A stretch of DNA of 35,354 nt. Origin: a virus. Positions 18,581 through 32,048 of the stretch are shown one piece after another; position 1 is the first letter of the stretch; each line of letters begins with the position of its first letter. The notes beneath the pieces are model-generated. The model did not search any database. It was not told the DNA's origin and was given only the letters and a program-made list of their open reading frames with translations. Location of the stretch: the IMG/VR virus record IMGVR_UViG_3300025889_000422, positions 1 to 35,354 of that record; one strand, 5' to 3'. The position numbers and the translations under genes were made by a program.

Positions 18581-18910
18581 TTAATCCCTATTTATTTCTA
18601 ATATTGCACAAGTGCCTTCGAATATATCTGCTGTAGCAGCTTGTAATTGTAGTTTATCATTCTCTTCTAACACAATTGAGCCGTCAGAGATAGACTTAGA
18701 ATCCCCTGAGTTTACAGTATGTTCAGCAAATTGAAAAGCAGTTGTTGCTGAATTATCATATAAAAAAGCTTTTATTTCTGTGTTTCCGCCACCTACATTA
18801 GCCGCATGTATATTCTGTATTATAGCCCTAGAATTAGATGGACATGTATAAACATCTATTACAGATGTTGAGTTTAGGTCAAAATTAGCATTTTTATAAA
18901 TATTTGCCAT
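18581..18910 (-). CDS. Small beta-rich virion protein, 109 residues
   Basis: The sequence alternates beta strands and turns: SVIDVYTCPSNSRAIIQNIH, EIKAFLYDNSATTAFQFAEH and SISDGSIVLEENDKLQLQAA, ending CAILEINRD. This pattern is typical of small beta-sandwich proteins that decorate phage heads or necks. A similar pattern occurs in the genes at 29689 and 32782. It is joined to the preceding 59-residue gene by TAATG. The exact position in the virion is unknown. Confidence 0.68.
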   Translation of the reverse strand: MANIYKNANFDLNSTSVIDVYTCPSNSRAIIQNIHAANVGGGNTEIKAFLYDNSATTAFQFAEHTVNSGDSKSISDGSIVLEENDKLQLQAATADIFEGTCAILEINRD

Positions 18911-19089
18911 TAACTATTATTACCCGAAGATTTAAACCAAGTAAATCTTTCTGTTTCTTGTTTAAGTTCATCTAAAAATGTAGAGTTTAATTGTTCTGTA
19001 ATTAAGGCAATAGCTCTATTAATTTGTTTTTGGTTTGAAACATCATATTCTTCTTTTGGTTCCGGTATTCTTATTACTATCTTAGCCAT
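18910..19089 (-). CDS. Small conserved virion-module protein, 59 residues
   Basis: I start this gene at ATG 19089-19087, giving MAKIVIRIPEPKEEYDVSNQ, rather than at 19140. The shorter form begins in a TAATG overlap with the nozzle-like gene and has GGAAGAAG just upstream, while the extension would lie inside that gene. The rest (KQINRAIALITEQLNSTFLD and ETERFTWFKSSG) is helical. Small proteins of this pattern often follow the nozzle gene in marine podoviruses. Its function is unknown and may be in neck assembly. Confidence 0.7.
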   Translation of the reverse strand: MAKIVIRIPEPKEEYDVSNQKQINRAIALITEQLNSTFLDELKQETERFTWFKSSGNNS

Positions 19090-21026
19090 TATCTTCTTCC
19101 ATCTGGTTGAATATCTAATCTTATAGTCCCAAATCTCCAAGACTCTGATGCGCTATCATTTTCTATTTTTATATTAACAAATCTTCCTCGTGCTCTTGTA
19201 TCCTTTTTTTGAGTAGAAGGTGTAATTGTAAATGGACTTAAGGCTGTCGCTGTTTGAGAATCTGAAGGATATCTTTTAACTGCAAGTGTTACTTTTGCAT
19301 TACCTGCAAGATCTTTAAAATCAGGTATGAATCTTCTAACCGCAAGAAAAACTTCTCCAGCTAATGCATATGTTTGTCCTCTTTGTGCCTGTTGAAGATC
19401 ATAGTCATATGACTGTATAAAAGAGGTAACTGTTGTCGTACTACCGTCAGGATTAACTTGATCAGTACCTACCTCATGCTCGAATAATGTAGTCTGCCCG
19501 AGCCCTGATTCCCCAATAATGACTGGAAATGTCCCTGACGCACTATCATTAAATTTAGTTGCAATAGGGTTAGGATACACGGTTGCATCGATCCAGGTAG
19601 TTCTAGCTTCTGTTCCTATATACCAAACACCTCCGGGTATTTTGCCACTTTCACCATAATTAAATACAACATACTGATCATTATATTCTGAATTTGTTGA
19701 TGGATAATACCAAGTCACTTCTGTGTACTGATTATTTAAACCCGCATAAACCTGTTGTCCTTTTGTAGTGTCTGCTTGATCATAGACATAATCTTCAACA
19801 GTACATGGTAGAGATTTAACTGTACCATCAAATGCAAAGAAACCGTTAGTAGACATCCAGTAAGCTACACCATCTATTTCAACCGCTGCATTTTTACCAA
19901 TCAATCCACAGTTAGTACCAACTTGTTCGAATCCAAATGTAAAAGGTGCACCAATAAATTTCATGGTGTATAAAGCGTTGTCTGTCCAAACTAGAATAGT
20001 TTCTTTTGCTTTTAAGGCACCCATAATTTTAGTACCGTCTTGTAGTCTTTGTGTACCAGCAGAGTTAATAGCAGTTACTGTATAGTCATTTATATCTTCT
20101 TGTTCTGAAAATCTTATAAACATATCATCTTGTGTTGCAGATGAACCAATAGTTGTTTCTGTTCCAAGATGAATTAAGTGACGTGTTGTTGGTGATACTA
20201 ATGTTACCCTTGTTGCAGTTGGATTGTTTGTAGTTGCAAATCCAGATGTAGATGTAGCTGCTCTTATTGTTAAAGCATTTGTTGCACCTGCGTTCCATGT
20301 AAATGTTTTACCGTTTGCAATCGTCGCAACTAATACCTGACCAAAATTACTTAATGACCAAAGACCTGGTTCAAGTGTTATGTCGTCTGCAGATGATGCT
20401 TCTCCCCAGTTTCCCGTTCCCCAAGTATCTGTACCCCAACCATAACCATATGATTGTGCGGCAGGACCTACTGGCTCGTAAGGAATTAATTCTATACTAC
20501 CACCTGTAGACACCGTTCCTGTTGCATTAGAACTTTGTGTAACTGTAAATACAGAACTAGATGTAACAGAAGTTACTTGAAAATTTTTATCTTCAAAGTC
20601 AGAATCAGAATAACCTGTACCACCAGGTAAAGTTACATTATTAAATTGTACGATGTCACCTGCTACCAATCCATGAGCAGATTTAGTTACAGAACAAATA
20701 GCAGAACCAGATGTAGTTGCAATTGTTGCACTAGTTAAAGCTGTTTTAACAGGTGTGATGTCATATAACTGACCTTCAAAATAAATAAGTAAACATTTAT
20801 CTGTGCCGATAGCAACATATCTGTTACCGGATAAATCTACAAATGCAAACTCACGTCTTGCAACACCAACAATTGTATCTGTAATAAGTGATGACCAGCC
20901 ACCAACTTTTTCTGGCAGCATATATCTAAATCGTACGTTATCACAATCTACCCAACGCTGTTCAGCACCTACTGTTGTGTTTTGTTTATCAATTCCTGGA
21001 ACGAATTGAAAGTCAAGAAGAGCCAT
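19089..21026 (-). CDS. Tail nozzle / stabilisation protein (P22 gp10 or T7 gp12 type)
   Basis: This 645-residue protein begins MALLDFQFVPGIDKQNTTVG, with WVDCDNVRFRYMLPEKVGGW, an N-terminal pattern common in podovirus nozzle or tail stabilisation proteins. The body is beta-rich with repeated short strand units (ETILVWTDNALYTMKFIGAP; GVAYWMSTNGFFAFDGTV), consistent with a beta-propeller. It ends RFVNIKIENDSASESWRFGT. It would form the lower tail tube that opens on infection. The adaptor-like genes lie on the far side of the adhesin region. The assignment rests on N-terminal pattern, fold and position. Confidence 0.75.
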   Translation of the reverse strand: MALLDFQFVPGIDKQNTTVGAEQRWVDCDNVRFRYMLPEKVGGWSSLITDTIVGVARREFAFVDLSGNRYVAIGTDKCLLIYFEGQLYDITPVKTALTSATIATTSGSAICSVTKSAHGLVAGDIVQFNNVTLPGGTGYSDSDFEDKNFQVTSVTSSSVFTVTQSSNATGTVSTGGSIELIPYEPVGPAAQSYGYGWGTDTWGTGNWGEASSADDITLEPGLWSLSNFGQVLVATIANGKTFTWNAGATNALTIRAATSTSGFATTNNPTATRVTLVSPTTRHLIHLGTETTIGSSATQDDMFIRFSEQEDINDYTVTAINSAGTQRLQDGTKIMGALKAKETILVWTDNALYTMKFIGAPFTFGFEQVGTNCGLIGKNAAVEIDGVAYWMSTNGFFAFDGTVKSLPCTVEDYVYDQADTTKGQQVYAGLNNQYTEVTWYYPSTNSEYNDQYVVFNYGESGKIPGGVWYIGTEARTTWIDATVYPNPIATKFNDSASGTFPVIIGESGLGQTTLFEHEVGTDQVNPDGSTTTVTSFIQSYDYDLQQAQRGQTYALAGEVFLAVRRFIPDFKDLAGNAKVTLAVKRYPSDSQTATALSPFTITPSTQKKDTRARGRFVNIKIENDSASESWRFGTIRLDIQPDGRR

Positions 21027-21765: not shown

Positions 21766-22017
21766 CTACGGATTGTTCGGGTCAATAGGTACCCAGGTAC
21801 CCGTTGTTCCTGGAACTATCGGGTTCCAGTTTATCACATCTACCGTGTTAGTTGCAAGGTTTATTTGATTACCAGTTACAGTAACTGTTGTAGGAAAAGC
21901 AATAGTAGTATTACCCACTGAAATATTTAATCTGTTTCCTGTTACTGCTATGTTTAAATCCTGTATGAAAGGACTTGAAAAAGGTGCTGCTGAAAATGAC
22001 GTTGATCCAAATAACAT
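21766..22017 (-). CDS. Short paralogue of the 22-residue-repeat adhesin (2 repeats)
   Basis: This 83-residue protein has the same three-part build as its 283-residue neighbour: a start MLFGSTSFSAAPFSSPF, two 22-residue repeats (residues 25-46 and 47-68, each beginning VTGN), and a tail PGTTGTWVPIDPNNP. The shared head and tail show that the two are duplicates differing in repeat number. It is probably a beta-structured surface fibre part. It begins in a TAATG overlap with the longer paralogue. Confidence 0.72.
   Translation of the reverse strand: MLFGSTSFSAAPFSSPFIQDLNIAVTGNRLNISVGNTTIAFPTTVTVTGNQINLATNTVDVINWNPIVPGTTGTWVPIDPNNP
21814..21945 (-). repeat. Two 66-base (22-residue) repeat units in the short paralogue
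   Basis: Units VTGNRLNISVGN... (residues 25-46) and VTGNQINLATNT... (47-68) fit the consensus of the 11-unit array in the neighbouring gene. Confidence 0.75.
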
Positions 22018-22868
22018 TATGAGCTCCTACTTGTTTGAACTGGTGTCCATACCTGAGTTGCGCCCGGTAGTATACCATCCCATTTTTTGATATTAACAGA
22101 TGTTGTTCCAACATTTAACTGATTTCCTGTAGGTAAAGCGGTTGCTGCAGCAGTGATTGTCACTGTTCCTGTTGCAAGATTAGATTGTTTTCCTGTAACA
22201 CTAACCACTGCATTTGCTTTAGCAACTGCATTACCAATTGTTAAATTAGCTCTTGATCCAGTAACAGAGAAGTTTGCATCAGCAGAAATGGTGACATCAC
22301 CTGTACCAATATTTGCTTGTGATCCATCTGGTAAAACAACTGCCGCAGCAGTAGTTGTTACATTACCAAGAGATACATTTGCTCTGTTTCCAGTAACAGG
22401 AACTGTAATATTAACTTTACTCTCAGCATTACCGATTGATAAATTAACTCTTGATCCTGTAAGAGCGACTAATGCATTAGCAACAATAGTTGGGTTACCG
22501 GTTGTAATACTAATTTGATTACCATCTACACTGACATTTGCATCAGCAGTAACAGTTACATTACCAACTGTGAAATTAACTCGTTGTCCTGTAACACCAA
22601 CGTTTGCATCAGCAGTGATACCAACTGTGCCTGTGTTTAAATTAAATCGATTACCGGTTAATGGAACATCTACATTGATTGCAATACCAACTGTACCTGT
22701 TGAGATGTTGGATCTGTTTCCTGTTACACCAAAATTAGCATCAGCGGTAACTCCAACTGTGCCTGTATTAGTATTGATCCGTGATCCATTGACTTCTACG
22801 AATGCGTATGGAGGAATGCCTTGTGAAGCAAAGGCTGCTTCAGAGAAAGCCGTTGCACCGAAGTACAT
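22017..22868 (-). CDS. Adhesin with eleven 22-residue repeats
   Basis: The 283 residues comprise a head (MYFGATAFSEAAFASQG), eleven back-to-back repeats of exactly 22 residues from residue 26 to 267, and a tail (PGATQVWTPVQTSRSS). The repeat consensus is V-T-G-N-R-x-N-x-x-T-G-T-V-x-I-x-A-D-A-N-V-x. Regular Gly and Asn positions suggest stacked beta strands, such as a beta-helix or shaft. It is likely an extended surface fibre. Repeat number is a plausible way to change its length. It follows the 96-residue chaperone-like gene and overlaps its shorter paralogue by TAATG. Confidence 0.78.
   Translation of the reverse strand: MYFGATAFSEAAFASQGIPPYAFVEVNGSRINTNTGTVGVTADANFGVTGNRSNISTGTVGIAINVDVPLTGNRFNLNTGTVGITADANVGVTGQRVNFTVGNVTVTADANVSVDGNQISITTGNPTIVANALVALTGSRVNLSIGNAESKVNITVPVTGNRANVSLGNVTTTAAAVVLPDGSQANIGTGDVTISADANFSVTGSRANLTIGNAVAKANAVVSVTGKQSNLATGTVTITAAATALPTGNQLNVGTTSVNIKKWDGILPGATQVWTPVQTSRSS
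22068..22793 (-). repeat. Array of eleven 66-base coding repeats
   Basis: Eleven units of 22 codons lie in tandem without any length change. Units start VNGSRIN, VTGNRSN, LTGNRFN, VTGQRVN, VDGNQIS, LTGSRVN, VTGNRAN, PDGSQAN, VTGSRAN, VTGKQSN and PTGNQLN. The units are diverged in sequence but fixed in length, so the array is old or under strong structural constraint. Confidence 0.88.
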
Positions 22869-22871
22869 GGT

Positions 22872-23162
22872 CTATGCTCCTGATTTCGGATATTTAGTTT
22901 TAGTAGCTGTTCTTTTAGCTTGTAATTCTGTAAGTGTATCACCACCATCTAATAGTGCGTGAATACATTCTTCATGTGTTGGGTATTCTGCTTGTCTGTT
23001 TCTTTTCCATTCTTCAGCGTCATACTCTGCTTGTAGTTCTGTCATCTTAGCTTCTATGTCAGCTACTGGTATAGGTGTTGTTCCATCATGCCAAACTATT
23101 TCTCCATCAGCTTTTATAGTTACTTTTGCGTTAGGATTTATTTTTAATATTGCATCAATCAT
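22872..23162 (-). CDS. Tail-fibre assembly/chaperone-like small protein, copy 1
   Basis: This 96-residue protein begins MIDAILKINPNAKVTIKADG and has IVWHDGTTPIPVADIEAKM, then a charged helix (ELQAEYDAEEWKRNRQAEYP). The W-x-(D/N)GTTPIPVADIEA block is shared with the gene at 26741, and 36 bases of DNA are identical between them (23050-23085 and 26949-26984). Such proteins follow fibre genes in many phages and may help fibre folding or attachment. It overlaps the preceding fibre gene by TAATG, as its copy does. Confidence 0.72.
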   Translation of the reverse strand: MIDAILKINPNAKVTIKADGEIVWHDGTTPIPVADIEAKMTELQAEYDAEEWKRNRQAEYPTHEECIHALLDGGDTLTELQAKRTATKTKYPKSGA

Positions 23163-23665
23163 TATTGTTCTACCTCTGTAAGTGTTAAAGCATAAGATGC
23201 GTTGTCATGTACTAATCTAAAATTACTGCCACCAGGAGACATTATATAAGGTTGGAAAATAAGTGTGTCTGTACTTGTTGTTGTGTATGAACCACCAAAA
23301 GTTACACCAGCATATCTGTTCTCACCATTTTGAATATAACCAATATGATAAGCTAAAGCACCACTCATATCTGTATAACTAGCACTACCGACTTTTACTT
23401 TCATTCTTCCTCTACCATTGTCTCCACTTCCAGTTACATCACACATTGTTGAACTAAAATCTACAATAATTAAATTACCAGATGCAGTAGGTGTAAGAGT
23501 TGCTGTAATACCACTTGAAGTTAAAGTCGTAGATGTAGTTTCAATATGACTAGCAGGATTTGCATAAGTTCTAACAACTTGCAAAACTTTCCCTTGTCCA
23601 GGTGCAACACTTGTTGGTATTGTCCCTGTTATTGCATTCGCTCCACCTAGTCTAGTTATCGCCAT
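23162..23665 (-). CDS. Tail fibre protein of the VLQVV type, copy 1
   Basis: The 167-residue product begins MAITRLGGANAITGTIPTSV with KVLQVVRTY, a common start in marine phage fibre heads. It is then a beta sandwich rich in Ser, Thr and Gly (LIIVDFSSTMCDVTGSGDNG; STDTLIFQPYIMSPGG), ending TLTEVEQ. It is paralogous to the gene at 27070, which shares the N-terminal pattern and the same downstream neighbour. It is probably a receptor-binding or decoration head on the fibre complex. Confidence 0.72.
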   Translation of the reverse strand: MAITRLGGANAITGTIPTSVAPGQGKVLQVVRTYANPASHIETTSTTLTSSGITATLTPTASGNLIIVDFSSTMCDVTGSGDNGRGRMKVKVGSASYTDMSGALAYHIGYIQNGENRYAGVTFGGSYTTTSTDTLIFQPYIMSPGGSNFRLVHDNASYALTLTEVEQ

Positions 23666-23668
23666 AAT

Positions 23669-23962
23669 TTATCCTATCAACGCTTTAATTTCTGCGTCGT
23701 CCAATCCTAAATCTTTTAGCTTCTGTTTACCAGAGGCTTTTTTATCTATTGCTGCTTGTTCAGCATCTTTTAATTCTTGTATCTTTGCATTTACTTCAGC
23801 TTCTGTAGGTATAATAGCTGTTTCATCATTTAATTTTATATATTTGTATTGCATACGCTGAGAATTAGGAATTTTATTTCCATTATCATCATGCGTTTTC
23901 CAACCATACCATTGAGATTTATCTTTATTAAAATGTGCTAAAGCTAATTGTAAGTAATCCAT
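23669..23962 (-). CDS. Small protein with KQKLKDLGL-DAEIKALIG tail, copy 1
   Basis: This 97-residue protein starts MDYLQLALAHFNKDKSQWYG and ends with a helix AIDKKASGKQKLKDLGLDD plus AEIKALIG. The last 30 residues closely match those of the gene at 24518, also at DNA level, while the N-terminal halves differ. It is likely a fibre-associated assembly protein, given that it sits between two fibre genes. It starts in a TAATG... arrangement with its upstream neighbour's frame (shared base 23962). Confidence 0.68.
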   Translation of the reverse strand: MDYLQLALAHFNKDKSQWYGWKTHDDNGNKIPNSQRMQYKYIKLNDETAIIPTEAEVNAKIQELKDAEQAAIDKKASGKQKLKDLGLDDAEIKALIG

Positions 23963-24516
23963 TATTGACTATCTCCTAAACGAATAAATTTAAAACAAGT
24001 ATAATTTACATCTGTATCTCCTTGAATACTACCAGAACCAATACTTGTTGCTTCAAAGAAAAGTTTTACATTTGTTGTATTAGTTACATTTACAAAAGCA
24101 AAACAAGAAGCTTGTTCATGTTGGCTATCAGTAGAAGCTGAAACTACATTACTTACTGGGTCATAATTAGAGTTATCAGTTGTTACATGTATTCTTATAA
24201 TATGGTTATCTGCTGAAGCACCAGTACTATTCATTGTAGCAGTAACTTCATAAAGACCAGTTGAAGGAAAACTCCAATAACCAGAACTAACAGACATTCC
24301 TGTTCCTATTTTAGAAAAACTTGCATCATCAACTCTTTCTAAGTTAGAAGCTATTGGATTAGTATTAGAACTTAAATTTGCAGTTAATCTCCAAAAATCT
24401 GCTTCTGTAATTCCAGTATTAGGCAAACTGCTAGTAAATGTACCAGAACCGTTTGAGGTAATAATATTGTTTCCCCCTGAATCCTGAAGCTGGTCTACTT
24501 TTAAAATACTGCTCAT
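23962..24516 (-). CDS. Fibre head protein with QLQD N-terminal module, copy 1
   Basis: The 184 residues start MSSILKVDQLQDSGGNNIIT, matching the gene at 27606 (MASIIKANQLQDFGGNSIIG). The body is a C1q/TNF-like beta sandwich in appearance (GYWSFPSTGLYEVTATMNST; CFAFVNVTNTTNVKLFFEAT), ending TCFKFIRLGDSQ. It is probably a trimeric receptor-binding knob, inferred from fold-like pattern and context. AGGAG inside the RLGDS codons can serve as ribosome binding site for the next gene, which overlaps by TAATG. Confidence 0.72.
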   Translation of the reverse strand: MSSILKVDQLQDSGGNNIITSNGSGTFTSSLPNTGITEADFWRLTANLSSNTNPIASNLERVDDASFSKIGTGMSVSSGYWSFPSTGLYEVTATMNSTGASADNHIIRIHVTTDNSNYDPVSNVVSASTDSQHEQASCFAFVNVTNTTNVKLFFEATSIGSGSIQGDTDVNYTCFKFIRLGDSQ

Positions 24517-24517
24517 A

Positions 24518-24724
24518 TTATGCTCCTATTAATGCTTTTATTTCAGCATCAGTTAATCCTAAATCTTTTAATTTTTGTTTACCAGATGTTTTCTTATCTA
24601 TTGTTGCTTGTTCAGCATCTTCTCTAGTTTGTTTATCTATGACTGCTTGTTCTTCTTCAGCCTGTCTTGTAGTAATTTCATTTGCTGTTAAATCAATTAA
24701 TTTATTATCTAATAATTTTTTCAT
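24518..24724 (-). CDS. Small protein with KQKLKDLGL-DAEIKALIG tail, copy 2
   Basis: The 68-residue, highly charged helical protein begins MKKLLDNKLIDLTANEITTR and ends in the same segment as the gene at 23669 (DKKTSGKQKLKDLGLTDAEI). The N-terminal part differs, so only the C-terminal module was copied or exchanged. It begins in a TAATG overlap. Probably an assembly partner of the adjacent fibre protein. Confidence 0.66.
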   Translation of the reverse strand: MKKLLDNKLIDLTANEITTRQAEEEQAVIDKQTREDAEQATIDKKTSGKQKLKDLGLTDAEIKALIGA

Positions 24725-25356
24725 TATGATTTTTTAACTCCCAAAACATTAATTGTTACTTGTGCGAAATTTCCACTTGTGAAAAAAAATCTAATACCAT
24801 TATGTGTTTCTGTTGCATCATTTCTTCTTCCAGTAAAATTGGTTGCTCTATTAGCATCAGATGCATTTGCAAAAGATATAGTTCCATTTAATCTTGTTGG
24901 AATTGTATTTATTTGAGGATTTGTAAAATCTATACAAGCTGTAAAACCTTCGTTAGCAGCATTACCCATTACAGTTTGTCTGTTTAATGTAATATTATCT
25001 TGTCCTGTTGATGAACCATCATCACTTAAACCAATTTCTGATGCTCCAAAATCATAATTACTTGTTACATCTGATCCATTATTTTGAAATCTAGCTTTTA
25101 ATTGAACACTATCTGTTGCTGGTTTTCCTGTAATAAAAATTTTATACCAATCATAAGTAGATGTAATATATGTACTAGAAATTACAACTTCAGAAACATT
25201 TGTAGCTGATGCATTATATAATTCTACCAATCCACCAAAACCAGATTGAGTAGCACCCGTTCCTAATGTAATTGTCTCCCCAGATTGACCAAGTGTAATC
25301 GTCCCTGATCCAGAGCTAGTTGTTATTGTTCCTACTTTTAATGTTCCGTCTGCCAT
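24724..25356 (-). CDS. Fibre head protein with LGQSGETITLG N-terminal module
   Basis: The N-terminus (MADGTLKVGTITTSSGSGTI; LGQSGETITLGTGATQSG) matches those of the genes at 25356, 28124 and 28681. The rest differs: ELYNASATNVSEVVISSTYI, DWYKIFITGKPATDSVQLKA and THNGIRFFFTSGNFAQVTIN, ending VLGVKKS. This is a common marine phage fibre head of beta type. It appears that one attachment module carries different heads. Position in the block corresponds to the gene at 28124 in the second block. Confidence 0.72.
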   Translation of the reverse strand: MADGTLKVGTITTSSGSGTITLGQSGETITLGTGATQSGFGGLVELYNASATNVSEVVISSTYITSTYDWYKIFITGKPATDSVQLKARFQNNGSDVTSNYDFGASEIGLSDDGSSTGQDNITLNRQTVMGNAANEGFTACIDFTNPQINTIPTRLNGTISFANASDANRATNFTGRRNDATETHNGIRFFFTSGNFAQVTINVLGVKKS

Positions 25357-25892
25357 TATGCTCCTATCCTGTATCCATAAAAATATGTTTTTCCATCTGC
25401 CTCTAAGTTGACAGAACTTCCACTATCTTGAAACATTTTAAATGCTACTACATTACCAGCAGATAAATCTAAAACTGCATGAATGGTGCTAGAACCTTCA
25501 CCACTACTATTTTGATTGAAATTAGTCTGTCTTATTATAGTTCCTCCAACAGTTAAAAAACAAGCAAGTCTAGTTGCTGAACCAGAAGCATTTGATCTAA
25601 AAGAAGCACCTACCATATACTTACCAGCTTTTCCTGATGGAACTGTAAATTCTCCAGTAGATGTACTATAAGCATTATCCGTATCAAGTTCTTCAGTATC
25701 ACAAACTACTGTTACAGCAGAACTATTTGCAACACCTGTTTGAGCTGAACCTCTTTTAGCACTCCAAGCTGGACTCATATGTCCAGTAGCAGCTCCACTT
25801 TCAAATGTAACTGTAGAGGAGTTTGTAGAACCAATAGTTAAATTAGCTGTTCCTGATACTGTATCAATTGTATTTGTTTCTAACTTACTCAT
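25356..25892 (-). CDS. C1q-like fibre head protein, RIGA C-terminus
   Basis: This 178-residue protein starts MSKLETNTIDTVSGTANLTI and has a jelly-roll-like head: AWSAKRGSAQTGVANSSAVT, FTVPSGKAGKYMVGASFRSN and FYGYRIGA at the end. The FTVPSGKAGKYMVGASF block is the hallmark shared with the genes at 28124 and 28681. It is probably a trimeric knob. The codons for RIGA contain AGGATAGGAG, which forms the ribosome binding site for the next gene, overlapping by TAATG. Confidence 0.73.
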   Translation of the reverse strand: MSKLETNTIDTVSGTANLTIGSTNSSTVTFESGAATGHMSPAWSAKRGSAQTGVANSSAVTVVCDTEELDTDNAYSTSTGEFTVPSGKAGKYMVGASFRSNASGSATRLACFLTVGGTIIRQTNFNQNSSGEGSSTIHAVLDLSAGNVVAFKMFQDSGSSVNLEADGKTYFYGYRIGA

Positions 25893-26350
25893 TATAAAAT
25901 TACGAATGTACTCCCTGATGGAATCGTTATTGTGCCTGAAACTGTAACGGGTCCAACTAATGCTCCATTGTTTGAACCTGTCATATTAATATTTGTCCAA
26001 GTTTGATTGTTCTTTACAAAAAAAGTTGAACTTAAAGAACCTGCACTGACTGTTGAATCTGTTGGAGTTCCAATATCAAATACATCACCTAATACTGTTC
26101 CGAAAAAAGTATCTGAACTTGCAGGATTTGATGTGAAAGTAATCTGACTTCCAGATATTGTAAATGCGGATTGCGGCTCTTGGACAACTCCTGAAATAGA
26201 GATTATACAATTAGCTTCGTTTCCAGGAGACACAGCTGTGCCGTTAACCGTTAAGTTAAACGGTCCTGGTGTTGATCCAGTGAATGACCCTGATATGTCA
26301 TCCAGTATTTGATACGCTCCTGTTTGAGGAGCTTTTCCAACGTAAGCCAA
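25892..26350 (-). CDS. Fibre base protein of the MAYxGxAP type, copy 1
   Basis: The 152 residues begin MAYVGKAPQTGAYQILDDIS and contain IISISGVVQEPQSAFTISGS and a C-terminal strand pair GPVTVSGTITIPSGSTFVIL. The same plan is seen in the gene at 29237 (MAYLGNAPK, QDPFSAYSISGG, GPVSFTATVTVQG). The C-terminus may form a short beta-helix cap that docks other heads. It is first in the left-hand block of duplicated genes. Function inferred from context and composition. Confidence 0.72.
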   Translation of the reverse strand: MAYVGKAPQTGAYQILDDISGSFTGSTPGPFNLTVNGTAVSPGNEANCIISISGVVQEPQSAFTISGSQITFTSNPASSDTFFGTVLGDVFDIGTPTDSTVSAGSLSSTFFVKNNQTWTNINMTGSNNGALVGPVTVSGTITIPSGSTFVIL

Positions 26351-26362
26351 TTGTTATTCTCC

Positions 26363-26713
26363 TTATTCAGTTGGGATCGGGTTTGCAGTCTTGACAGCTT
26401 CTACATGGTCTTTCCATGTAGTAGTACCATTAACATTGTCGTGGTACTGCATGTCGAGCTGTGAACCTAGATCACCGTAGGCGTTTTTTCTTGTAGCTCT
26501 TACTGCATTTTGTCTCTCTTCGAGATCTGCAGCAGAATCTACAGCGTTCAGTTGCTCATCAGTCGGTTTCGCTACACCTGACACATTCCATGTCTTGATG
26601 TAAGGGCCCTGACCGTTTGAGTCGTCCTGAAGCAAAACGTCAGTCATAAAGTCTACATTTGCTACGCCGTTGTTAGCGCAGTAAGTTTTGACTTTGCTTG
26701 ATAGTGATGCCAT
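26363..26713 (-). CDS. XkdW-like small tail assembly protein
   Basis: This 116-residue, mostly helical protein has SSKVKTYCANNGVANVDFMT, then KPTDEQLNAVDSAADLEERQ and YGDLGSQLDMQYHDNVNGTT followed by TWKDHVEAVKTANP. The last part resembles the XkdW type protein found next to tail fibre genes. It separates the two duplicated adhesin blocks and is not itself duplicated. Probably an assembly or structural accessory protein. It has a 27-base gap upstream with GGAG at a suitable distance. Confidence 0.68.
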   Translation of the reverse strand: MASLSSKVKTYCANNGVANVDFMTDVLLQDDSNGQGPYIKTWNVSGVAKPTDEQLNAVDSAADLEERQNAVRATRKNAYGDLGSQLDMQYHDNVNGTTTWKDHVEAVKTANPIPTE

Positions 26714-26740
26714 AGTTTTTGTCTCCTTTGTTATCTTATA

Positions 26741-27070
26741 TTATGGTTTGATTGGAAATACAACAGCATTTGCTTGTTCTACTGTCGTAATTCCTTCTGT
26801 TATATCTCTCAATTCCTGTCTGTAAGTAGTCATATCTGCTGACATTGTATTGTCAGACAATGCATGAAAGTCTGTGTCTTGTAGTAATTGATTTCTTTTT
26901 GATCTTAAATTTTGCATAGTGTTGTCTAATTCTACAGCTGGGAACTGTGCTTCTATGTCAGCTACTGGTATAGGTGTTGTTCCATTGTGCCAAGTTATTT
27001 GGTTAATGTCATCTGCATTTACAGAAAATTCTGCATTTAGATTTATTTTTTTAATTGCTTTTTCAATCAT
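26741..27070 (-). CDS. Tail-fibre assembly/chaperone-like small protein, copy 2
   Basis: The 109 residues begin MIEKAIKKINLNAEFSVNAD and include ITWHNGTTPIPVADIEAQFP, then a helical tail (NTMQNLRSKRNQLLQDTDFH). It is paralogous to the gene at 22872 and shares a 36-base identical DNA segment with it. As there, it follows a VLQVV-type fibre gene through a TAATG overlap. The C-terminal half has diverged completely, perhaps because it matches a different partner. Confidence 0.72.
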   Translation of the reverse strand: MIEKAIKKINLNAEFSVNADDINQITWHNGTTPIPVADIEAQFPAVELDNTMQNLRSKRNQLLQDTDFHALSDNTMSADMTTYRQELRDITEGITTVEQANAVVFPIKP

Positions 27071-27603
27071 TATCCAGATACCTCCATAACAATTATGCTA
27101 CTTGCACTTCTTCCACCTTCAGAAGCACTATCAACATCTGCTTGAGTTCTATTTATATAAAAAGAACCATTGCCATCTGTTTCGCCTTGTAATTTATACG
27201 TCTGTTGACTAGTACTTGCTGGACTATCTAGGTAATTTAAAAACCCCATAAATGCAGTTTCTTGACCAGCATTTGTTGCACCATTAAAATAATCATCTGC
27301 TGCAAAATAAGCAACTCTATGTCTATTACCAGCAGCGGCTCCTACATATGTAGATGTATTTCCACCAGATAATTGAAATTTTGGAGAAGCATTTATATCT
27401 GCTGACCAACAAAAACTAGCTGTTACTAATATTTTATTTGATGATGAAGATGGAGTTATGTTTACAGATAAATTAGATATATCTACCATGCTTTGGCTTG
27501 AACTACTTGTAGTATCTGTTTTAATTGCTTGAACAACTTGCAAAACACTACCAGCGGGTAGACCTGTAATTAAATTTTTTCCATCTATTTTACTTAATGC
27601 CAT
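27070..27603 (-). CDS. Tail fibre protein of the VLQVV type, copy 2
   Basis: The protein of 177 residues starts MALSKIDGKNLITGLPAGSV with LQVVQAIKTDT. A beta-sandwich head follows (VDISNLSVNITPSSSSNKIL; TAFMGFLNYLDSPAST), ending RSASSIIVMEVSG. The N-terminal pattern and the downstream small gene match the pair at 23162/22872. This head type with PSSSSNKILV is widespread in marine phages as a fibre domain. Confidence 0.73.
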   Translation of the reverse strand: MALSKIDGKNLITGLPAGSVLQVVQAIKTDTTSSSSQSMVDISNLSVNITPSSSSNKILVTASFCWSADINASPKFQLSGGNTSTYVGAAAGNRHRVAYFAADDYFNGATNAGQETAFMGFLNYLDSPASTSQQTYKLQGETDGNGSFYINRTQADVDSASEGGRSASSIIVMEVSG

Positions 27604-27605
27604 AA

Positions 27606-28121
27606 TTAACTTCCTATCCTTTCAGCTGCAAAGTTACTTTCAGTTCCATTTTCTCCAAGTAAAACTTTACTACTTCCTGCACTTTGTTTGAAAAATGCTT
27701 CCACATAATCGTCTGCATCTAAATACATAACGACTTCTATTTGTTGTGTTTGATAATTACTAAATGGATAACCATTTGCTGTAAAAGCATAAGAACTTCC
27801 ATTTTTATAAATAGCTACATTTCCAAAATTTGTATCAGTACACTGTAAATATCCATGTGCTGAAACTCTATAATAACCAGCTACTCCTGGATTAAAACGA
27901 TAGTTAGTTGTAGAATCAAATTTTCCATTACTATCAAATATTTCAGTGTCAAAATTTCCTTTAGTCCAAGTATCATTTGAAAGAGTTTGATTTGCACTTA
28001 ATTTAGCAGAAAAAGCAGGATAGTTAGTCTTCTGCGTAGTAAGATTACCCGCACCATCAGATCCGATAATGCTGTTACCGCCAAAGTCCTGTAGTTGATT
28101 TGCTTTTATAATTGATGCCAT
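27606..28121 (-). CDS. Fibre head protein with QLQD N-terminal module, copy 2
   Basis: The 171 residues start MASIIKANQLQDFGGNSIIG, then YPAFSAKLSANQTLSNDTWT, a C1q-like core (YRFNPGVAGYYRVSAHGYLQ), and end ESNFAAERIGS. It links two families: its N-terminal module matches the gene at 23962, while its head matches those at 28124 and 28681. RIGS is encoded by AGGATAGGAAGT, again a ribosome binding site for the next ATG 3 bases beyond its stop. Probably a receptor-binding knob. Confidence 0.74.
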   Translation of the reverse strand: MASIIKANQLQDFGGNSIIGSDGAGNLTTQKTNYPAFSAKLSANQTLSNDTWTKGNFDTEIFDSNGKFDSTTNYRFNPGVAGYYRVSAHGYLQCTDTNFGNVAIYKNGSSYAFTANGYPFSNYQTQQIEVVMYLDADDYVEAFFKQSAGSSKVLLGENGTESNFAAERIGS

Positions 28122-28123
28122 AA

Positions 28124-28681
28124 TTATGATCCTATCCTGTATGCACCGAAGTATGAATTAGCAACAAATATACCACCAGTGCTATCTCCACTTTCCGTAA
28201 AACCAAAAATTTCTATGTAATCTCCAACAGATAAATCTATTGTTGCTGATATTCCTACTGTTTGATTTATTGGTTGGGATGAATTGTTATTATAATTTCC
28301 TTGATTTTTATAGTCACTTCCATTTTTATAAATATAAATTTTTGATTGAAATAGTTTATAAAAACTACCACTCTGTGTTTGTTGAGTACCTCTTGCATAT
28401 ATAAAATATTTACCAGCTTTTCCACTAGGAACTGTAAATCGATAATTTGTAGAATTATCATAAACAGAGTCTGTGTCAAATCTCTCTGTGTTAAATTGCA
28501 TTTTAGTTATAGTAGTATTTGAAATATTTTGATTAGCTGACAAATACGTTTCAAAAGCAGGATAGTTTAAATTACTTTGCACAACACCTGAACCTAGAGT
28601 AAACGTATCTCCAGAACTACCCAGGGTTACTGTGCCGTTGTCAGCGATTGGTTCTATATTTGTTGTTTTAATTGTTCCCAT
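28124..28681 (-). CDS. C1q-like fibre head protein, RIGS C-terminus (a)
   Basis: This 185-residue protein starts MGTIKTTNIEPIADNGTVTL with LGSSGDTFTLGSGVVQS, then YPAFETYLSANQNISNTTIT, YRFTVPSGKAGKYFIYARGT and ends SYFGAYRIGS. It is closely paralogous to the next upstream gene at 28681 (same plan, same end), so the two are tandem duplicates. Gly- and Asn-rich insertions (YKNQGNYNNNSSQPINQT) differ and may be exposed loops that meet the receptor. Confidence 0.75.
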   Translation of the reverse strand: MGTIKTTNIEPIADNGTVTLGSSGDTFTLGSGVVQSNLNYPAFETYLSANQNISNTTITKMQFNTERFDTDSVYDNSTNYRFTVPSGKAGKYFIYARGTQQTQSGSFYKLFQSKIYIYKNGSDYKNQGNYNNNSSQPINQTVGISATIDLSVGDYIEIFGFTESGDSTGGIFVANSYFGAYRIGS

Positions 28682-29235
28682 TATGATCCTATCCTGTATG
28701 CTCCAAATAATGTTTTTCTACTTGGTGTAGTTCCAAAAAAATCTGGGTTACCACTTGTGTCATCTATTTGTCCAAAACCCTCTAAATAATCTGATGATCC
28801 ATTCATATCTACAGTTAGAGTTGCGTTAACAGTACAAAAAGAACCTAAAGTATTTCCTCTAGCATCAATTTTTGATTGACTAATCTCTGACCCATTTTTG
28901 TATATAAATAAATTTAACTGATCTAAATTAGCACCTGCAATTGTATCTGAACCTAAAACTGCATAAACAAAATACTTTCCTGCTACTGTTGGGGTAAATC
29001 TATAGTTAGTAGAATTATCATAACAATTATCGGTATCAAAAACTTCAGAATTAAATTGTATTTTTGTAGTGGTATTATCCGTTACAGTTTGATTAGAACT
29101 TAAAAATGCTTCAAAAGCTGGATATAAAAAACTTGGTTTAGCTCCCGTTGCAGTAGTAATAGTATCCCCAGAGCTACCTATCTCTAAACTAGTTCCTGAT
29201 TGTGGGTCTATTTTATCTACAAATAATGTTGCCAT
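28681..29235 (-). CDS. C1q-like fibre head protein, RIGS C-terminus (b)
   Basis: The 184 residues start MATLFVDKIDPQSGTSLEIG with SSGDTITTATGAKPS, then YPAFEAFLSSNQTVTDNTTT, YRFTPTVAGKYFVYAVLGSD, and end TLFGAYRIGS. It shares N-terminal module and head with the gene at 28124. The AGGATAGGATCATAATG junction gives ribosome binding site, last codons, stop and next start in one short sequence. Likely one of several alternative or co-assembled knobs on the tail. Confidence 0.75.
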   Translation of the reverse strand: MATLFVDKIDPQSGTSLEIGSSGDTITTATGAKPSFLYPAFEAFLSSNQTVTDNTTTKIQFNSEVFDTDNCYDNSTNYRFTPTVAGKYFVYAVLGSDTIAGANLDQLNLFIYKNGSEISQSKIDARGNTLGSFCTVNATLTVDMNGSSDYLEGFGQIDDTSGNPDFFGTTPSRKTLFGAYRIGS

Positions 29236-29236
29236 A

Positions 29237-29680
29237 TTATACTACCGTTAATGTTCCTTGTACTGTTACTGTTGCTGTAAATGATACTGGACCACATAAC
29301 ATCATGTTGTCCGTTGCAGGAACTGTAATTGTTTCTGAAACTGTTGCTAGGTTTTTATATCCACCATTGATTGCAGAAATCATTCCTGCTTGAATACTGT
29401 TTTCTCCAGGGTTAATGCTACCTGTAGATTTACCTTGGAACACTACATAGATGTTTGCTGTGCCTGATGGTGGAGCTTCTGTAAATGCTAGAGTGGTACC
29501 ACCTGATATTGAGTAAGCTGAAAATGGATCTTGTCTAACGTTTCCAACATAGACTTCTGCTTCTGCAGTATTTGAAACACTTTGACTTAATGTAAAATTT
29601 GTTGTTGAACCATTACCATTGAACTGTTGAGAGTTCATGGTATTTAAATTTTGTTTTGGAGCGTTTCCTAAATAAGCCAT
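29237..29680 (-). CDS. Fibre base protein of the MAYxGxAP type, copy 2
   Basis: The 147 residues start MAYLGNAPKQNLNTMNSQQF and contain TTNFTLSQSVSNTAEAEVYV, QDPFSAYSISGGTTLAFTEA, and NSIQAGMISAINGGYKNLAT, ending GPVSFTATVTVQGTLTVV. This plan (attachment start, one carbohydrate-module-like beta domain, short helix, final strands) recurs widely in marine phage fibres. It heads the right-hand duplicated block and is paralogous to the gene at 25892. Confidence 0.74.
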   Translation of the reverse strand: MAYLGNAPKQNLNTMNSQQFNGNGSTTNFTLSQSVSNTAEAEVYVGNVRQDPFSAYSISGGTTLAFTEAPPSGTANIYVVFQGKSTGSINPGENSIQAGMISAINGGYKNLATVSETITVPATDNMMLCGPVSFTATVTVQGTLTVV

Positions 29681-29688
29681 GATTCCTC

Positions 29689-30021
29689 CTACGTACTTAT
29701 ATCATCTACAGCGCCAACGACAGTATCTAAAGAAGAAGCTGTATCTGATTTAACATACAACTGATCTCCTGAAGCAAGTACTATCTTCGAGCCTCCATCA
29801 ATAAGTTCCAATGATCCGCCACTTACAATCGGCGCATTTTTGATTAAATAATAATTAGCTGATGATCTTCTTATGTAAGCTTCAACATTAATTGTTGAAG
29901 TAGTGATGTTTGCCATTCTAACACTAATTAAAGTGTCAAAACTATTTGCAGCACCACCTAAAGCATCAACTGCTGAAGTTCCTGTTTCTCTTGTTAGATA
30001 ATTTCTAAAGTTTTGTGCCAT
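29689..30021 (-). CDS. Small beta-rich virion protein, 110 residues
   Basis: The protein starts MAQNFRNYLTRETGTSAVDA and has beta strands typical of a small tail or head component: DTLISVRMANITTSTINVEA, YLIKNAPIVSGGSLELIDGG and KIVLASGDQLYVKSDTASSL. It resembles small beta-barrel proteins often found next to fibre genes in marine phages, with GSSLELIDG and SGDxLxVxS elements. Exact location in the virion is unknown. Confidence 0.7.
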   Translation of the reverse strand: MAQNFRNYLTRETGTSAVDALGGAANSFDTLISVRMANITTSTINVEAYIRRSSANYYLIKNAPIVSGGSLELIDGGSKIVLASGDQLYVKSDTASSLDTVVGAVDDIST

Positions 30022-30882: not shown

Positions 30883-31554
30883 TTATGGTGATGGCGACTT
30901 AATCTGAGAACGAATAGCGCCATCTTGCCATTCATCTCTACGTCTTCTACCTTCTTGTTCAATAGAGTACGATTTTGCAGCCCTTTTATATGACTGTTCA
31001 TAGTATTGTAACAGATCCGCTGGACCTTTCAAGTATCCATATGCTTCTACCAGACAAGCATACAAAAGTAAATCCTGATATTTGTTAGATGTGTAAGTTC
31101 CTGAAGCGCTTACTGATGAGTCTGTAAGACTTGTTGGCTGTTTAATATAAGCCAAAGTAATTTCAAAAGTAGCGTTTGGTGTAGGTGCTACCACCCAAAA
31201 ATTAGCGTCCCAGTTAGCATAATACTTAGGTAGGCCACTGGCTGTGCTAGGTGTGTTGTAATATTCTGTCATAAAACTAGTGTCTCTTTTTTCTAAAAAC
31301 ACCTGATTATTAGATCCATCTTTTAATTGAACATATCTAATCGCTCTTAAGTCCGATGGAATGGTGACATATCTGTTTCCAGACTGTAGGTTTGATGTAG
31401 CATAAAATCTATTATCATCAGAGTCTACTTCTCTATAGATTCTGTTCTCAGCATTTTTAATTATTGTGTTTAGAACACCTGTCGACAATACAGCGCTATC
31501 TACTTCTGTATAGTTTCTAATATCGTCCTGTAAGTTTGTAAGTGTATATGCCAT
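30883..31554 (-). CDS. Head-tail adaptor protein (T7 gp11-like)
   Basis: The 223 residues begin MAYTLTNLQDDIRNYTEVDS, then a helix (LNTIIKNAENRIYREVDSDD), a beta domain (RYVTIPSDLRAIRYVQLKDG; FLEKRDTSFMTEYYNTPSTA) and a final helical bundle (YEQSYKRAAKSYSIEQEGRR). This is the usual plan of podovirus adaptor/tail tube A proteins, which form a ring below the portal. It ends in a basic, disordered tail. It starts in a TAATG overlap with the upstream gene. Confidence 0.77.
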   Translation of the reverse strand: MAYTLTNLQDDIRNYTEVDSAVLSTGVLNTIIKNAENRIYREVDSDDNRFYATSNLQSGNRYVTIPSDLRAIRYVQLKDGSNNQVFLEKRDTSFMTEYYNTPSTASGLPKYYANWDANFWVVAPTPNATFEITLAYIKQPTSLTDSSVSASGTYTSNKYQDLLLYACLVEAYGYLKGPADLLQYYEQSYKRAAKSYSIEQEGRRRRDEWQDGAIRSQIKSPSP

Positions 31555-32048
31555 TATGGTGATAGTGTAACCGGACCAGCCGATATACTTCCTCCTCCTA
31601 TTTTTGCAGTTGCAGTTGCTGTGCCTGAAGCTGTAAATGTATAGTTATTAGCATTTGTAACTGTAATTGTAAATCCCGAAGCGTTATTAATATCTGTAGA
31701 AGTTATACCCGCACCAGGTTCACCGTCTCTAAATCTAACAGTATCACCTGTAGTTCTTCCATGATTATCTTCAAACACTGTAATAGTTGTAGATCCACTT
31801 ACAGCAGACAATGGGTTTAAAGTTAATACTCTTGCAACAGCAGGCTCAACTCTTGCAGGTCTTGCATTTAATAAACCTTGTGGATCCGCTGAATGTGGTT
31901 TTGGTTCTAGCTGAGGATGTTTTGGTTCAAACTCTGATACATGAACTCTTGCTCCATTCCATTCTATTACCATTTCAGAATATGGAAAAGCTAATCCTGA
32001 TCTATCTGATATAAATTGTGCATATTTACCTGAAGAAAGACTCGACAT
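31554..32048 (-). CDS. Conserved head-tail module protein, 164 residues
   Basis: The N-terminal half, GKYAQFISDRSGLAFPYSEM then VIEWNGARVHVSEFEPKHPQ and LNARPARVEP, is a recognisable conserved block in phages (ISDRSGxAFPY and FEPKHPQL). The C-terminal half is a Ser/Thr/Gly beta domain with VFEDNHGRTTGDTVRFRDGE. Homologues are usually next to connector genes, but the role is unproven. It is bounded on both sides by TAATG overlaps, so it is translated with the two connector genes. Confidence 0.73.
   Translation of the reverse strand: MSSLSSGKYAQFISDRSGLAFPYSEMVIEWNGARVHVSEFEPKHPQLEPKPHSADPQGLLNARPARVEPAVARVLTLNPLSAVSGSTTITVFEDNHGRTTGDTVRFRDGEPGAGITSTDINNASGFTITVTNANNYTFTASGTATATAKIGGGSISAGPVTLSP

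Follow-up and report, generated by a model that had tools for sequence, protein, structure and literature searches.

The virus record IMGVR_UViG_3300025889_000422, analysed here over its whole length of 35,354 bases (the window), carries on its minus strand two blocks of small tail fibre genes, each headed by a base protein gene (A2 for block 2, A1 for block 1) and separated from each other by a link gene. The original prediction had presented them as two collinear adhesin blocks produced by block duplication. The regularity described below is stronger than that of a block duplication: it consists of fixed addresses, changeable tips, and helper genes going with the tips. Our explanation, which we consider likely, is that the two blocks encode an array of addressed adhesin sockets, in which each fibre begins with a fixed tag specific to its slot (b, c, d or e, followed by the number of the block), ends with an exchangeable tip and, for some tips, is accompanied by a cognate chaperone.

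Relatives were collected through three scans of viral contigs, with A2, A1 and the link gene as queries (best 80 of 133, 112 and 135 relatives, respectively; the resulting loci, designated by L numbers, overlap), and their genes were called with our own script. After removal of identical arrays, the complete blocks 2 of the window's form had exactly four fibre genes in 29 cases out of 29, and the complete blocks 1 had four in 53 out of 54, the exception (L096) having six. The link gene was directly before A1 in 127 of the 128 loci holding both (overlapping loci counted). An alternative block 2 was found in 42 unique arrays (in L100, L111-L116, L121 and others): there the base is fused to a tip of its own and is followed, as a rule, by one further fibre and then by the link gene; in the loci of this form that were inspected, neither the link gene nor the first tags of block 1 depart from the usual type. 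In L142, the alternative block 2 has a 471-residue protein inserted after its second fibre and ahead of the link gene; the start of this protein resembles, by eye, a flavin-dependent halogenase or oxidoreductase.

The two ends of the fibres were compared on a set of 315 unique fibres, drawn from complete blocks only and with exactly four genes of at least 125 residues. The set leaves aside L096, with its six fibres, together with all incomplete blocks; the 42 alternative arrays served as a separate check. Slots were named by gene order, independently of the tag. When fibres with tips more than 60% identical were left out, the nearest neighbour of a tag (first 18 residues) belonged to the same slot in 308 cases out of 315. 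For the tip (last 110 residues), the nearest neighbour belonged to the same slot in 118 of the 304 cases with any match, and in 85 of 297 once tips more than 60% identical were left out (against a shuffled-label mean of 13%). With stricter neighbours (A protein less than 90% identical, or other block), the values were 303 of 315 for tags and 94 of 301 for tips. At the DNA level, arrays were paired when their A genes were 85% identical or more, which gave each slot 80 pairs in block 2 and 120 in block 1. The median identity of the tag was 0.70-0.95, according to the slot, and that of the tip 0.56-0.59 (0.58 for random tips); in each slot, between 1 and 7 of these pairs retained a tip identity of at least 0.8.

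Exchange of tips between slots could be seen directly. Seven cross-slot pairs of tips were more than 75% identical, two of these across blocks. Along the DNA of the six that were profiled, identity was about random in the tag, rose in the linker, stayed mostly at 80-100% over the tip and fell at about the stop codon; in the closest pair, the b2 fibre of L039 and the c2 fibre of L029 were 98% identical over the last 110 residues. The seventh pair joins the b1 fibre of L101 to the d1 fibre of L033; here similarity extends over the tip and the small gene that follows, to near the end of the compared stretch. A further pair, d1 of L153 and b2 of L202, has small proteins 99% alike and tips 72% alike (by our own score), with tags sharing 1 residue out of 15. 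The idea that two diverged fibre sets could hold a reservoir for exchange agrees well with these profiles. The 315 fibres fall into 242 tip clusters at 50% identity, of which 202 have a single member; the tip pool is therefore far from sampled. Within single arrays, 0 of 462 pairs of tips were above 50% identity, for 0.6 expected, which speaks neither for nor against an avoidance of similar tips. Several fibres thus combine a conserved N-terminus with a variable C-terminus, the latter being a candidate receptor-binding part.

The presence of a small gene downstream of a fibre depends on the class of its tip. Classes were defined by our own clustering and a motif rule, which put 45 of the 315 fibres in an 'other' class (including c1 and e1 of the window). 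A small gene was found behind all 22 FRNIIING tips (ING below), 42 of 48 VLQVV tips (VLQ), 30 of 35 WRL tips, 35 of 45 'other' tips and none of the 165 C1q-like tips. In the latter case it was not simply missed, because from a C1q fibre to the full-size gene that comes next there is a median gap of 2 bases (163 cases, with two gaps above 60); in the remaining two cases the next gene, 57 bases on, was taken as the link gene. Clusters of the N-terminal part of the small proteins had an adjusted mutual information (AMI) of 0.69 with the tip and 0.19 with the slot. The C-terminal part is shared more widely (AMI of 0.42 with the tip and 0.25 with the slot); it was considered as a slot marker and discarded as a weak one. 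In the alternative arrays (85 fibres, sorted by simple motif rules, with 20 unclassified and with L116 looking frameshifted), a small gene was present behind 21 of 21 ING tips and 2 of 2 VLQ tips, and absent behind 32 of 35 C1q-type tips.

The same associations were sought in 20 named phages, a non-random sample since they were picked for a match to a base or small gene, with profiles built from the relatives of the window. Genes of the F family were behind a VLQ tip in 10 cases out of 12 (weakly for S42C7, E 2e-4), D genes behind a WRL tip in 5 out of 5 (H35, Eyrgjafa, not included), and K genes behind an ING tip in 4 out of 4. F pairs were found in SAR11 phages, including Kolga (a siphovirus by name), and in the Autographiviridae S30C28 and S46C10; D pairs in Autographiviridae Gjalp and HTVC041P; a K pair in the OM43 phage Melnitz (Kyanoviridae); and both F and K pairs in the SAR116 phage HMO-2011. 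The two F misses were in the SAR11 Kyanoviridae phage Mosig and in the second copy of S30C28. Partnerless tips also occurred, namely the VLQ tip of Lederberg and, in HTVC035P, the WRL tip that comes first; in Melnitz, the VLQ tip is followed by a gene that did not match the F profile. In HTVC010P, a C1q-type tip is followed by a 45-residue gene. The N-termini in front of the tips differ widely among the named phages, so that tip plus helper looks like a common currency. Fibres gp29, gp32, gp34, gp37 and gp40 of HMO-2011 (L006) have a common GDLA ending and perhaps represent a further tip class. A wider version of our explanation, to which we give an even chance, is that of a plug-in array of fixed valence, with 4+4 protein-addressed sockets per virion loaded from a pool of TNF/C1q-like tip genes, some with a dedicated chaperone, this pool serving marine phages that span several families and hosts, chiefly SAR11 but also OM43 and SAR116.

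Four of the window's tips are predicted to adopt a TNF/C1q-like fold, from AlphaFold2 models for e2 and d1 and from Pfam C1q matches above cut-off for b1 and d2. The e2 model (mean predicted local distance difference test, pLDDT, of 80) matched the PLTL lectin (Z 13.9, root mean square deviation, rmsd, 2.0, 117 aligned) and the TNF-like lectin BC2L-C (Z 13.4, rmsd 2.3, 116 aligned); the d1 model (mean pLDDT 87) matched C1QL1 (Z 16.1, rmsd 2.2, 130 aligned). With hhalign, the WRL and C1q profiles aligned over the whole length, tag included (E 1.2e-20, 18% identity). The VLQ and C1q profiles aligned over columns 1-116 of 180 (E 1.6e-11), and the fold link between these two classes rests on the model because the alignment is best in tag and linker. 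According to their structure titles, the lectins matched here were determined in the presence of sugars, and TNF-like tips are known from chimeric fibres of Bdellovibrio, one with bound GlcNAc (excerpts of PMC10769870); glycan binding is therefore a likely role of the tips.

The mechanism that we propose is as follows. A1 and A2 would each head a row of four fibres. The first 20 residues or so of a fibre, its position-specific tag, would be its docking address on the tail; after a short linker would come the TNF/C1q-like tip, probably as a trimer, which would bind the host surface. Tips in need of folding help would carry a dedicated small gene just downstream, the product of which would fit the tip family by its N-terminal part and have a more widely shared C-terminal part. 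This putative chaperone role is suggested by the family matches of one small gene, F2, and by the precedent of gp24/gp25 of phage Pam3 (see below): F2 alone passed the gathering score of PF16778 (30.8 bits, for a cut-off of 26.6), whereas F1, the K gene of L090 and the two other small genes of the window (23669-23962 and 24518-24724) do not match this family. Recombination with one breakpoint in the linker and the other downstream of the tip, or of its small gene, would swap the tip, or tip and helper, and leave the tag in place; tail geometry would be kept while the binding repertoire changes.

Several observations weigh against this explanation, at least in a strict form. Tips are not freely interchangeable: tip neighbours share a slot two to three times more often than with shuffled labels, ING tips are confined to e slots (22 of 22) and C1q tips are nearly always in b, c and d (5 of 165 in e slots). 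The link between tip and small gene is not a strict rule either: WRL tips have a small gene in only 1 case out of 7 in the alternative arrays and in 3 out of 6 in the e slots of the main set, and gp31 of HMO-2011, one of 13 C1q-type tips in the named phages, is followed by a small tail gene. Only one of the four small genes of the window matches a chaperone family. As for docking, the first residues of the e2 and d1 models are of low to middling confidence (their sole helix being one of 4 residues, in e2), and no partner for docking came to light. Finally, one tag, d2, differs more at codon positions 1 and 2 (0.206) than at fourfold sites (0.099), the reverse of what is found for the other seven, and each tag is less divergent at fourfold sites than the A gene that goes with it; part of tag conservation may for these reasons stem from recombination.

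How the two blocks arose can be considered separately. The original prediction was right on the genes, their strand, their families and their order, save that block 1 has two further small genes. The TAATG overlap that it had taken as a sign of matching blocks is present at 7 of the 15 consecutive junctions of the region, and we rejected it as evidence for duplication. The small GTTPIPVADIEA genes are indeed present in both blocks, but they mark the tip and not the place, as this family follows VLQVV-type tips; they match because both last fibres carry such tips. When full-length proteins were compared by BLASTP, the expectation that each block 1 gene would best match the block 2 gene at the same position held for 5 out of 6, b1 preferring c2; in the reverse direction, with block 1 as the only target, 5 out of 6 were again in register, c2 preferring b1. 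Over all genes, b2, c2 and d2 each prefer a neighbour in their own block. Tag profiles (hhalign, 26 residues) gave b1-b2, d1-d2 and e1-e2 as reciprocal best pairs, but not the c pair, and the in-register pairing had the highest summed score of the 24 possible (our arithmetic on the hhalign matrix). With a second measure (mean pairwise score over 18 residues), d and e are in register and c1 prefers c2, whereas b1 is slightly nearer to c2 than to b2 (26.3 versus 25.1) and c2 prefers b1. Matching positions are thus more alike than expected by chance, though only modestly so, and the in-register b, d and e tags point to some past copying of fibre positions from one block to the other.

For the base proteins, a tree of the A domain was built with 53 rows: a random draw of 14 of 62 A1, 14 of 51 A2 and 10 of 42 fused proteins, the two of the window and 13 references (labels followed gene position for the named phages and, for the loci, BLAST comparison with the window; HTVC034P is represented without its second A-like gene). 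One side of a branch supported at 100/98 consists of the 22 A1 rows. This side includes HTVC019P (Autographiviridae), Melnitz (Kyanoviridae), HTVC115P, Lederberg and HMO-2011, the branches of HMO-2011 and Melnitz being long and their exact placement unsure. Since the A1 side holds A1 genes of several phage families, the two bases are older than the present lineage. The proposed duplication thus survives as a collinear order with related N-termini at several matching positions, but not as a single copying of a whole block, given the older A1/A2 split and the slot by slot swapping of tips. A serious contender, which we place a little short of even, is partial copying: an old pair of A + e units would have gained b, c and d in one block, which would later have been copied to the other. 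It is compatible with addressed sockets. The gene order of pelagiphages HTVC203P and HTVC035P (A, one e-like fibre, link gene, A, e-like fibre; 'e-like' being judged by eye on the first residues) looks like such a starting point, HTVC019P has the first four genes of that order, and the b and d tags match between blocks; on the other hand, the c tags are out of register and b1 prefers c2 by the second measure.

Two other rivals concern the parts of the array. The small genes might be part of the tip, as a separate adhesin at the end of the fibre, instead of chaperones. Their tip specificity would suit this reading, which we nevertheless hold to be unlikely since F2 matches Phage_tail_APC above cut-off, a point limited to F2 as D, the tested K gene and F1 lack such a match. 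The tags, for their part, might be mere short homology arms guiding recombination, devoid of a docking role; their high DNA identity and low fourfold divergence are what such arms would have. However, arms need be neither slot-specific nor fixed in fibre number, and codon positions 1 and 2 are less divergent than fourfold sites in 7 of 8 tags, so that we regard this proposal as distinctly unlikely. Least probable of all is a whole-block duplication, in which one block was copied entire and the copies diverged, their likeness being simple paralogy: it would explain why the tag profiles or the full-length proteins pair A, b, d and e position by position and why A genes head both blocks, but the A1/A2 split predates the phage families sampled (for the base gene only), tips and small genes track tip family more than position, and 42 unique relatives have a quite different block 2 beside the link gene.

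The features of the array, which we continue to read as addressed sockets, are collected in Table 1. Besides its match to phrog_18673, A2 gave a sub-threshold Pfam match to the T7 tail fibre N-domain (E 0.024). A1 starts with a TTG codon (at 26350) behind AAGGAG; the other array genes start with ATG. Downstream of the array, a minus strand gene (22017-22868) is built of repeats of about 22 residues, VTGNRxNxxTGTVGI-like by eye, and is followed by a short paralogue (21766-22017, minus strand, E 3e-14). Two small genes of the structural region that lie far apart, 29689-30021 and 18581-18910 (minus strand), are related at E 1e-5, and the structural proteins of 31554-32048 and 19089-21026 (minus strand) have a stretch of about 84 residues in common (E 1e-8).

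Table 1. Genes of the two fibre blocks and their immediate neighbour, in order of transcription within the array (positions in the window)
Feature	Position	Strand	Evidence
A2, short base protein of block 2, MAYLGNAP, lacking a tip of its own	29237-29680	-	phrog_18673 tail fiber protein, E 2.8e-10; base-gene tree
b2 fibre, slot tag and C1q-like tip, no small gene	28681-29235	-	sub-threshold C1q match, E 0.006; same gene classed as C1q tip in L007
c2 fibre, slot tag and C1q-like tip, no small gene	28124-28681	-	no Pfam match; tip class C1q for the same gene in L007
d2 fibre, slot tag and C1q tip, no small gene	27606-28121	-	Pfam C1q E 3.9e-5, above cut-off
e2 fibre, slot tag and VLQVV-type tip, predicted TNF-like lectin fold	27070-27603	-	AlphaFold2 model, PLTL lectin match
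F2 small gene, probable cognate chaperone of e2 tip	26741-27070	-	passes cut-off of PF16778 Phage_tail_APC, E 2.6e-7; phrog_4912 tail fiber assembly, E 1.1e-13
Link gene between blocks, MASLSSK, XkdW-like	26363-26713	-	passes cut-off of PF09636 XkdW, E 3.9e-12
A1, base protein of block 1, TTG start	25892-26350	-	phrog_18673 E 3.6e-54; tree branch 100/98
b1 fibre, slot tag and C1q tip, no small gene	25356-25892	-	Pfam C1q E 1.8e-5, above cut-off
c1 fibre, slot tag and unclassified tip	24724-25356	-	tag consensus; same gene classed as 'other' tip in L010
Small gene after c1, possible chaperone	24518-24724	-	C-terminal part common with 23669-23962, 63% identity over 60 columns; no Pfam match
d1 fibre, slot tag and WRL-type tip, predicted C1q fold	23962-24516	-	AlphaFold2 model, C1QL1 match
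D small gene, probable cognate chaperone of WRL tips	23669-23962	-	tip association; no Pfam match above cut-off
e1 fibre, slot tag and VLQVV-like tip (own small tip community 6, counted under 'other')	23162-23665	-	tip clustering
F1 small gene, probable cognate chaperone	22872-23162	-	phrog_9114 (unknown function) E 4.1e-27; family association with VLQ tips
Gene directly before A2	29689-30021	-	adjacent to A2 in 167 of 167 loci holding both (overlapping loci counted)

The window stems from an ocean phage and is close to the HTVC023P-type podoviruses, since its capsid protein and its DNA polymerase are, respectively, 79% and 63% identical to those of Pelagibacter phage HTVC027P. Among 50,697 phage records, relatives of the F1 small gene were found in 11 (8 Pelagibacter phages, HTVC010P appearing twice, and 3 uncultured) and those of the D small gene in 7, all Pelagibacter phages. 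Because these relatives sit mainly in Pelagibacter phages, the host is probably SAR11.

If our explanation is correct, the array can be read as a testable code, where the tag says where, the tip what is bound and the small gene which helper. Such a code would allow tips from metagenomes to be sorted by family, helpers to be predicted from tips and tip turnover to be tracked in natural populations; phages of this kind could reshuffle their binding without rebuilding the tail. Among the matches listed in a search of the open-access literature (titles and abstract openings), no description of slot tags or tip-chaperone cassettes in pelagiphages was found. Reports on HTVC023P-type and HMO-2011-type phages (PMC9599517, PMC9038755), on pelagimyophages (PMC7029224), on Polarivirus skadi (PMC10504331) and on Melnitz (PMC9004378) deal, in the excerpts considered, with cross-family transfer of metabolic genes, conserved modules, and hypervariable host-recognition regions or host change; these excerpts mention neither slot tags nor such cassettes.

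The elements of the array have counterparts in systems already described, here cited from excerpts. The C1q genes of marine-phage metaviromic islands (PMC3909814) are likewise variable, are proposed to be receptor binders and also occur in pelagiphage-like genomes; slots, tags, tip classes and small partner genes are not mentioned in the excerpt. Alteromonas phages A5, V22 and P24 provide a case of a tail fibre and its cognate chaperone common to unrelated phage families (PMC10579305), but what A5 and V22 have in common is a syntenic module of ten genes, whereas here single tips moved between numbered slots. The branched tailspike complex of Ackermannviridae (PMC11414711) resembles the array in having several receptor-binding proteins with conserved N-termini and exchangeable C-termini, recombination taking place at the conserved 5' ends. 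It differs in that up to four tailspikes are joined by XD/Gp10-like domains, the word 'chaperone' being absent from the excerpted text, whereas the window has 4+4 small TNF/C1q-type fibres, some with a helper gene; no match to these joining domains was seen in the Pfam and PHROGs output for the window, from which a weak relative could escape.

The closest parallel for the pairing of tip and helper is the myocyanophage Pam3, with its tail fibre gp24 and chaperone gp25 (PMC9608196). As proposed here, gp24 has an N-terminal docking part and a TNF-like part thought to be the receptor binder, and gp25 combines a variable fibre-binding N-domain with a conserved C-domain. This feature, an adjacent small gene with a fibre-specific N-terminal part and a shared C-terminal part, holds for VLQ, WRL and ING tips but not for C1q tips. 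Moreover, Pam3 has a single fibre gene, with a helical N-domain and a glycine-rich tip, whereas the window has eight short fibres with slot-specific tags, and the two tips modelled end in a TNF/C1q fold. The closest parallel for the array itself is Pelagibacter phage HTVC115P, the gp54-gp65 region of which contains this block 1 too, its b and c tags being almost identical (over the first 20 residues, 18 are identical to the window for b1, 20 for c1, 12 for d1 and 7 for e1); it differs by the fused form of its block 2 and by a capsid protein without detectable likeness to that of the window. To conclude, the array would be a variant of the modular receptor-binding proteins, set apart by its slot tags and tip-helper pairs.

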